This document shows positions 40,366 through 40,677 of a stretch of 64,000 nucleotides of DNA, in pieces (the stretch's first letter is position 1; every line of letters starts with the position of its first letter). The notes beneath the pieces are model-generated. The model saw nothing but the letters and a program-made list of their open reading frames with translations. It had not been told where the DNA came from and made no database searches. The DNA is from Paracoccus sp. Z118 (GTDB lineage Bacteria; Pseudomonadota; Alphaproteobacteria; Rhodobacterales; Rhodobacteraceae), in NCBI RefSeq assembly GCF_019061185.1, contig NZ_JAHQZU010000006.1, positions 124,001 through 188,000 on the forward strand, read 5' to 3'. The translations under genes and the position numbers were made by a program.

Positions 40366-40449
40366 GACCCGCTCCTTCGTCTGATCGCAGCGGGAATAGG
40401 CGAAACGCGCCGGGATTGAAAGATGCCCAACTGCGCCTGCGTCACCGGT

Positions 40450-40479
40450 GCATGGGTATTTGAACCAGAAAGAAGTCCG
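40450..40479 (+). repeat. Rhodobacterales-type intergenic repeat, copy 2
   Basis: GCATGGGTATTTGAACC followed by AGAAAGAAGTCCG. An inverted copy lies at 40628-40656 and matches 28 of 29 positions apart from one substitution and one inserted T. Together they enclose about 150 bases including a 10-base-stem hairpin. Confidence 0.65.
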
Positions 40480-40536
40480 TTAACCTGATCTCAAGGATTT
40501 CCGTGCAGTCTCCGAATCGCGGTACAGGCTGGGGAG

Positions 40537-40574
40537 CCGATGACCGCCCAGAGAGAAGTCGCCCCGGTCATCGG
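40537..40574. other. Inverted repeat with 10-bp perfect stem in the gene-free gap
   Basis: CCGATGACCG (40537-40546) and CGGTCATCGG (40565-40574) are perfect arms around an 18-base loop. It is in the only stretch above 300 bases without a gene (40366-40677) and between the two inverted repeat copies. No T run follows, so it is not an ordinary terminator. It could be a small-RNA hairpin or a protein site. Confidence 0.55.
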
Positions 40575-40627
40575 GTGAGACATCCCGTTCCTGCCGGAAG
40601 GCGGGGGTGGCCGGGGCGCAACTTCCG

Positions 40628-40656
40628 CGGCTTCTTTCTGGTCCAAATACCCATGC
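40628..40656 (-). repeat. Rhodobacterales-type intergenic repeat, copy 3 (inverted to copy 2)
   Basis: On the minus strand this reads GCATGGGTATTTGGACC followed by AGAAAGAAGCCG. It is nearly identical to the plus-strand copy at 40450. It lies 21 bases downstream of the ketoacyl-ACP synthase stop. Confidence 0.65.
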
Positions 40657-40677
40657 GGCCGCGCCACGCGGCACAGG

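Follow-up and report, generated by a model that had tools for sequence, protein, structure and literature searches.

A candidate family of structured small-RNA genes in Rhodobacteraceae and its matching gene-end repeats in Paracoccus

The locus and its inverted repeat

The window, that is, the whole 64,000-nucleotide stretch of Paracoccus sp. Z118 DNA analysed here, contains an interval (40366-40677) bounded by the start of a ferredoxin-like ORF (40365, minus strand) and the stop of a ketoacyl-synthase ORF (40678, minus strand). The inverted repeat originally predicted within it is real, with two arms of 26 nt, A (40450-40475) and B (40631-40656), complementary at 25 of 26 positions (96%). On the minus strand the right arm reads as a repeat, or tag, starting about 22 nt past the ketoacyl-synthase stop. 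At up to three mismatches, the 22-nt repeat contained in the arms occurs in the window at just these two sites and is absent from 100 dinucleotide shuffles, so that chance does not account for its presence there, and the 161 contigs of the own genome (G000) hold 13 copies of it, both arms counted, and none of the reversed pattern. The region is also predicted to fold far more stably than its shuffles on both strands (z of -7.0 and -6.5). The features of the interval, together with two further tags in the window, are collected in Table 1.

Table 1. Positions of the features discussed in the text
Feature	Position	Strand	Basis or remark
Left arm A, tag-type repeat GCATGGGTATTT-GAA-CCAGAAAGAAG	40450-40475	+	Arm pairing; 13 own-genome copies
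TTAA-N7-TCAA box, CtrA-box-like	40480-40494	+	Family alignment
Weak -10-like hexamer CAGTCT, one base upstream of the family position	40506-40511	+	Inferred
Predicted RNA 5' end and near-invariant domain	40519-40547	+	Family conservation, structure
Stem P1, GCGGT/ACCGC	40519-40523/40543-40547	+	Comparative structure
Stem P2, GGCT/AGCC, loop GGGG	40527-40530/40535-40538	+	Comparative structure
A' (CCAGAGAGAAG), copy-specific stem	40548-40558	+	Sole difference from arm A at position 6 (G at 40553)
Inner GC stem, 5' side (CGCCCCGG)	40560-40567	+	Pairs with 40611-40618
Inner GC stem, 3' side (CCGGGGCG)	40611-40618	+	Alignment, RNAalifold
Right arm B (CTTCTTTCTGG, 40631-40641 on +) plus TCCAAATACCCATGC	40631-40656	-	Repeat arm
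Whole predicted RNA; may end within or shortly past B	40519-40656	+	Inferred; structure model
Further tag, type of RNA copy L003 (CGAAGAAGAA)	13778-13801	+	
Further tag, type of RNA copy L025 (GACAGAAGATG)	57841-57865	-	Follows ORF stop 57954 (-)

Conservation at and away from the locus

Among related Paracoccus genomes, the whole interval can be aligned at the ferredoxin/ketoacyl-synthase locus of G020 and G002. In 14 other genomes of the genus (L034-L046, L048), a stretch of 106-234 nt of the interval aligns at 73-79% identity, and the flanks fetched, up to 1.5 kb per side, show neither neighbour gene. Simple inheritance at one locus is ruled out by this occurrence of the conserved stretch away from both neighbours, and the possibility that the interval is unique and not conserved falls with it. 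The original prediction had allowed that two independent members of a scattered repeat face each other by chance with nothing of note between them. The arms do belong to a scattered repeat, one whose sequence matches the RNA gene proposed at 40519-40656; however, the intervening stretch has been conserved at other loci across the family and, as described below, both arms match an internal segment copy by copy, which leaves this null reading with next to no credibility.

The ferredoxin locus was fetched from 28 genomes of the genus, and the ketoacyl-synthase is directly adjacent in six, of which G000, G002 and G020 carry the unit and G004, G011 and G013 do not. At the loci without it, a single repeat remains on the ketoacyl-synthase side in G004 and G011 and none in G013, while near relatives of the 40519-40656 RNA lie at other places in G013 and G024. 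The unit has inverted ends, and the three unit-free loci are, by eye, too diverged to define a target-site duplication. The description 'mobile-like' is thus partly borne out, by presence or absence at a shared locus and by relatives elsewhere. A RAYT transposase between the flanking repeats is ruled out at this locus, as only 155 nt separate the arms. At the six own-genome RNA copies (L001, L003, L023-L026), crude gene calls in every case place on the B side a gene that points toward the RNA gene, which makes B the sense tag of that gene.

Distribution of the RNA family

Alignment of 17 copies defines a near-invariant core, CGGTACAGGC-N-GGGR-N-GCCGATGACCG, within a 5' domain bounded by GCGGUACAGGC and GAUGACCGC. 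At up to one mismatch, 103 of 149 sampled Rhodobacteraceae genomes contain the core, with 1 to 6 copies each, and none contains the reversed control; the own genome has six exact copies and a seventh match with three mismatches. Across a sample of the phylum, at up to two mismatches, 26 of 27 genomes of the family carry the core as against 10 of 371 others, the reversed control giving three hits. A stricter 29-mer retrieved 93 stretches, which by title come mostly from Rhodobacteraceae genera (Paracoccus, Rhodovulum, Roseovarius, Gemmobacter and others), some being titled just 'Alphaproteobacteria' and one a 'Betaproteobacteria' MAG. The core is also seen on plasmids outside the family, those of Nitrosococcus, Thiothrix, Rhizobium and Azospirillum (L181-L184, Rhizobium relatives included), and in L181, L183 and L184 it is preceded, by eye, by a GC-rich hairpin, a GGTATT/GGTACTT motif and an A-like segment. 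Phage records searched for the core gave no match; four stretches with the exact core pattern are found on viral contigs (L355-L358).

No Rfam 15 family reaches the gathering threshold over the window or 12 loci of the family, apart from tRNA elsewhere, or over one further locus, and positions 40300-40750 give no hit at E values up to 10. A riboswitch or other known RNA is ruled out by this absence of an Rfam match. Large Paracoccus replicons bear no annotation over the RNA-family stretches opened. In P. denitrificans, 167 putative small RNAs have been reported (PMC5107571), and from the portion of that report consulted no link could be made between the family and any of them, such as the expressed 'intergenic 134'. 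The words Rhodobacter, Silicibacter and Paracoccus do not appear in the main text of a survey of stem-loops (PMC2267715). In Rfam and the parts of the literature covered, no report was recognised as describing this RNA family, although an earlier one may have been missed. Overall, it is very probably an undescribed RNA family of the Rhodobacteraceae.

Promoter and structure of the predicted RNA

The unit at 40519-40656 (plus strand) would be a member of a multi-copy family of small-RNA genes, transcription of which would be turned on by a promoter with a TTAA-N7-TTAA box. Alignments were made without the duplicates L011, L017, L022 and L051-L057, and the promoter set also without a chance hit at four mismatches (L084:1648). 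Counted from the A of ACAGG, the 55 copies of this set have A at -41 in 96% and A at -30 in 95%, which is the TTAA-N7-TTAA box, followed by A at -16 in 71% and T at -12 in 69%, a -10-like element; position -5 is a purine in 55 of 55 and is succeeded by an invariant C. The spacing of the -10-like element and the invariant purine-C at -5 together predict a start at window position 40519. The box, which resembles a CtrA box, is placed over the -35 region as it would be in a CtrA-regulated promoter, and this layout predicts transcription from 40519 and, putatively, CtrA control. By eye, the box is absent from three of the plasmid copies that lie outside the family (L181, L182, L183), and the Thiothrix plasmid copy, lacking it, has TATATT 7 nt upstream of GCGG.

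The RNA would consist of a constant two-stem 5' domain directly followed by a long hairpin with a copy-specific outer stem. For five close relatives, RNAalifold returns P1 (GCGGU/ACCGC), P2 (GGCU/AGCC with a GGGG loop) and then the long stem, in which A' is paired to B and the inner GC stem is nested; its total covariation term is +0.8, so the five-sequence set alone proves little. A wider comparison of 36 distinct 29-mers finds the last pair of P2 formed in 35 (TA 16, GC 15, AT 3, GT 1) with one mismatch, against a mean of 16.4 and a maximum of 25 in shuffles. For the end pair of P1 the count is 36 of 36 (GC, GT or AT), a value that shuffles, with an average of 32.1, also attain; the inner P1 pair (-1,19) forms in 26 of 36 and does not exceed its shuffles, and the remaining P1 and P2 pairs hardly vary. 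Compensatory changes, as looked for in the stems of a structured RNA, are present in the last pair of P2 and in the copy-specific A':B stem.

The perfect 10-bp hairpin named in the original prediction (CCGATGACCG at 40537-40546 and CGGTCATCGG at 40565-40574, with an 18-nt loop) is exact in the sequence. As a conserved unit it does not survive comparison, its 3' arm being kept (at least 9 of 10 positions) in just 10 of 154 family copies, which rules it out as the key structure, while the stems described above are supported. The wider idea of an RNA-forming unit has gained a comparative structure and a promoter-like start, both by prediction.

Could the unit encode a peptide instead? An ATG at 40540 opens a short frame, MTAQREVAPVIG, preceded by the Shine-Dalgarno-like GGGGAG, and the frame stops after 12 codons in 7 of 25 copies (L001, L034-L037, L040, L041), as a leader peptide or micro-protein might. 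In the remaining 18, however, its length varies from 18 to 543 codons, and at the same locus in G020 (L032) it reads through to 50; GGGGAG is itself the loop and stem of P2. The frame is thus not kept between relatives, as that of a protein-coding short ORF would be, and a leader-peptide gene is accordingly a very improbable account.

The RNA might also be a small RNA of ordinary kind, under CtrA control, that works by way of the constant 5' domain or the GAUG loop, with A':B as no more than the terminator stem and arm A as a neighbouring gene-end repeat that has no function in the system. The 5' domain is indeed the most conserved part, and some copies (L066, L068) end, by eye, in a clear GC stem with a U-tract. 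This account is unlikely, as a terminator stem needs no arm A, yet that arm lies ahead of the predicted start and resembles A' in most copies, and the agreement of RNA and tag types across genomes is left unexplained. Both observations are set out in later sections. As to an intrinsic terminator in the window, the inner GC stem ends 12 nt before the pyrimidine-rich B, and a terminator scan gives one weak hit (40612-40627).

Three matching segments in most copies

Most units carry their type-specific sequence three times, as the upstream arm A, as the internal A' and, in complement, as the downstream B. Copies were counted with identical ones taken once and those too near the end of a locus skipped. 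Among the 154 copies thus obtained, A resembles A' at 9 or more of 11 positions in 133, where swapped loci lead one to expect 15.8, and B is the complement of A' to the same degree in 124, as against 15.0 for swapped loci; both match in 116. The swapped controls leave out only pairs with identical A' and are therefore conservative. Within 14 nt after B, AAATA or AAGTA follows in 122 of the 124. Moreover, the A' types within one genome differ from each other, all six of six in G000, with one like pair in G014.

The three segments also depart from each other in a regular manner. At position 6, A and A' differ in 100 of the 116 copies (98 of them A>G), whereas A and the reverse complement of B differ in 5, which means that the outer arms agree and the internal A' deviates at one usual place. 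This usual difference speaks against A and A' being the plain target-site duplication of an inserted element. The energy model gives -26.3 kcal/mol for A':B with the change and -26.2 without it, and so lends no support to a weaker self-pairing through position 6 or, the self-stem being left as strong, to an easier displacement of A':B by a tag. The change keeps the pairing of the RNA, as G-U, while making the RNA gene unlike the tags as DNA.

Tags at gene ends

The arms A and B belong to a set of dispersed tags made of TATTTGNN followed by 11 nt of a given type. Their position was followed in 40 stretches of G002, hand-picked from 96 hits of the CCAGAAAGAAG type, hits less than 400 nt from the end of a stretch being skipped, with genes called by a home-made codon-usage script trained on 15 ORFs of the window. 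Of the 56 tags in these stretches, 39 come after a gene on their own strand, the median distance from the stop being 46 nt, and 17 do not; none falls within a called gene, and 20 are paired with an inverted copy at most 160 nt away. By eye, a GC stem of the classic form, followed by a T-run, stands between the stop at 57954 (minus strand) and the tag at 57841-57865 of the window, and a GC stem with TTTT is seen ahead of the valS tag of G004, so that these two tags may not be part of the mRNA. After efp in the own genome, a short inverted pair of tags (L015; G000:C106:94171-94257) contains GAAGTCGCCCCGG and CCGGGGC between its arms, like the inner stem of the RNA, and is perhaps a deletion form of the RNA gene.

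The chief rival to a role of the RNA in recognising tags is a REP/BIME-like family of mobile or self-copying terminator repeats that would have spread and been homogenised in each genome, with the RNA genes lying inside inverted pairs of them. The RNA would then use one arm for its own hairpin, and types would match through the common repeat family rather than by recognition. The inverted pairs with short loops (the 20 of 56 in the G002 set), the short pair after efp with its RNA-like interior, tags placed after terminator-like stems, the terminator-tail-like pyrimidine richness of B and the presence or absence of the unit at one locus are all in keeping with it.

RNA and tag types across genomes

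Types were compared over 23 genomes of the genus (G000-G022), the counts including the one or two arms of the unit itself. RNA copies were taken as full-core matches at 0-1 mismatch, plus the TCCGGACC rows of G000, G002 and G020 at two mismatches, the remaining two-mismatch rows being treated as chance by eye. For the CCAGAAAGAAG-type repeats the counts per genome are complete, and the matches listed are those outside G000, G006, G010 and G015 and the last of G020.

In the four genomes whose RNA carries CCAG(A/G)GAGA, tags of the CCAGAAAGAAG type number 13 (G000), 96 (G002), 34 (G020) and 7 (G013), and in the 19 others 0-6. Among these hits, all six in G004 are CACGAAAGAAG, G004's own RNA type, two of three in G003 are CCAGAATGAAG (RNA CCAGAGTGA), and three of seven in G013 are CCAGGAAGAA(G/A) (RNA CCAGGGAGA). 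A search with the CAACG type, CAACGAAGAAG, finds it exact in 20 of 21 hits in G003, 31 of 33 in G022, 10 of 13 in G001 and 3 of 6 in G010, all of which have that RNA; elsewhere the hits show the own RNA types, GAACG for 13 of 14 in G011 and CAAAG for 10 of 10 in G012 and 12 of 12 in G018. G000 and G020 give one CAAAG hit each, the remaining genomes of the genus, apart from G017 and G002, none, and G039, outside the genus, two. Tag types with no RNA found also exist, namely the CAACG type in G017 (16 of 19 hits exact; the assembly is 71% complete) and 11 CAAGG-type tags, CAAGGAAGAAG, in G002. The A>G change of A' is carried by one tag, CAACGGAGAAG, in the CAACG-type search and by none among the CCAGAAAGAAG-type matches listed.

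Further, ten conserved genes tagged in G002, named from a reading of their predicted proteins, were traced into five genomes, and the resulting 48 gene ends were inspected for tags by eye. Twelve of these ends, with one tag a base off, bear a sense tag whose type is that of the local RNA, at valS (G022, G012, G004), mcm (G022, G004), priA (G000, G020, G004), lpdA (G020, the one a base off; G012), efp (G000) and an aminotransferase gene (G020). The valS tags illustrate the pattern, being CAACG in G022, CAAAG in G012 and AAATGGTGAAG in G004. Local-type tags in opposite orientation account for 3 of the 48 (gluQ in G022 and G012, xseA in G004), mcm and xseA of G012 have opposite-orientation CAAAGGTGAA tags with no exactly matching RNA found, and 31 ends are tag-free, dnaJ and dapB in all five genomes. 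When homologous genes are tagged, the tag is usually of the own genome's RNA type.

Samples beyond these genomes are more uneven. In 200 kb from each of four other genera, own-type tags number 4 in G153, where such repeats rank with the most frequent 10-mers that follow TATTT, 2 in G111, one base off, and none in the other two. Across 77 named 8-kb loci there are 8 own-type repeats beyond the unit itself, whereas foreign types average 0.1; seven of the eight come from Paracoccus, with four of them at two loci that share a type, and exact copies show the tag type in 6 and the A' type in 2. Tag sets are, then, strong in Paracoccus and patchy elsewhere in the sample, and the match of RNA and tag types within the genus is strong as an observation.

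For the rival of repeat spread, tag types without a found RNA and the very unequal copy numbers of genomes sharing the locus (13 in G000 against 96 in G002) are further points in favour. Against it stand the differing A' types within each genome (two alike in G014), for which random capture by a few large repeat families is an unlikely source, and the rarity in tags of the A>G change that A' shows in 98 of 116 copies. On balance, this remains a serious alternative, though a rather doubtful one.

A proposed recognition of tags by the RNA

The reading that we tentatively prefer, at somewhat less than an even chance, is that the small RNA recognises tagged transcripts in trans by base pairing. 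RNA copies in one genome of the genus nearly always differ in A', and the types that were followed have matching tag sets; B plus the following CUUCUUUCUGGUCCAAAUACCC forms the complement of these dispersed, mostly sense tags shortly past genes. The 3' part of the RNA would pair with the constant TATTTG of a tag and then through the type-specific 11 nt, the constant AAATACCC stretch serving as the pairing start, provided that the RNA reaches that far and that the tag is part of the mRNA. The fate of the mRNA 3' end, be it processing, stability or termination, might be affected as a result. Calculated duplexes are compatible with such pairing, with -29.4 to -40.0 kcal/mol for seven own tags against -26.3 for the self-pairing A':B, -20.7 and -24.3 for two tags of other types and -10.8 for a reversed control. 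That some tags follow terminator-like stems lowers our confidence in a role in trans. Also counting against it are the tag types with no RNA found, the 17 of 56 tags away from a same-strand gene end, the 31 of 48 untagged homologous ends, the 2 exact A'-type against 6 exact tag-type copies in the named loci and the few own-type tags in other genera.

A bolder proposal, which we regard as improbable, is that the RNA acts as a master that writes or selects the tags, A'/B specifying the gene-end repeats through RNA-templated or RNA-guided placement or conversion beside TATTTG. The usual A>G in A' would then preserve the stem of the RNA while setting the RNA gene apart from its own DNA targets. 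If so, it would amount to a bacterial genome with several orthogonal RNA-tag channels marking many gene ends.

Were the preferred recognition in trans to be right, a large group of well-studied bacteria, Paracoccus and many of its relatives, would carry several small-RNA genes in parallel, each with a matching tag set at the ends of ordinary genes, with RNA and tags changing together between species. It would constitute a layer of gene-end control, or else a spreading element tied to an RNA.

Comparison with known systems

Small RNAs and gene-end repeats are each familiar, and, so far as the Rfam and paper searches go, the novelty lies in the coupling of the two. In REP/BIME elements with their RAYT (TnpA-REP) genes, the gene is enclosed by two copies of its own repeat in opposite orientation, and there are several types, each with a master gene. 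The present units resemble them in having a gene inside an inverted repeat pair, many dispersed intergenic copies and several types per genome. The flanked gene here, however, is a structured RNA with no kept ORF, and the variable part of the repeats matches the variable stem of that RNA.

Sibling small RNAs such as Qrr, OmrA/B, AbcR and CcsR likewise occur as several paralogues per genome that share a core and differ in a variable part, as do the copies described here. Unlike in those families, with which sequences were compared through Rfam only, the variable part is matched by dispersed tags at gene ends. MITEs, elements of about 200 bp with inverted ends and no protein, are similar in size, in their ends, in the lack of a protein and in presence or absence at one locus, whereas here the ends vary between copies and correspond to a segment inside the RNA. 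RNA-guided systems of the TnpB/Cas12 kind combine a constant RNA part and a variable segment and act at DNA sites beside a T-rich motif. Here, too, a variable segment comes after a constant 5' part of the RNA, and the matching DNA sites follow a T-rich motif (TATTTG), but the variable segment is internal and self-paired and the sites are the host's own gene ends.

Finally, DNA uptake signal sequences are described in the survey text consulted (PMC2267715) as short repeats that often occur as close complementary, inverted pairs and act there as terminators, in which the tags are alike. The tags differ in coming in several types per genome, with few to 96 copies per type among the genomes tallied, each type matched to an RNA.
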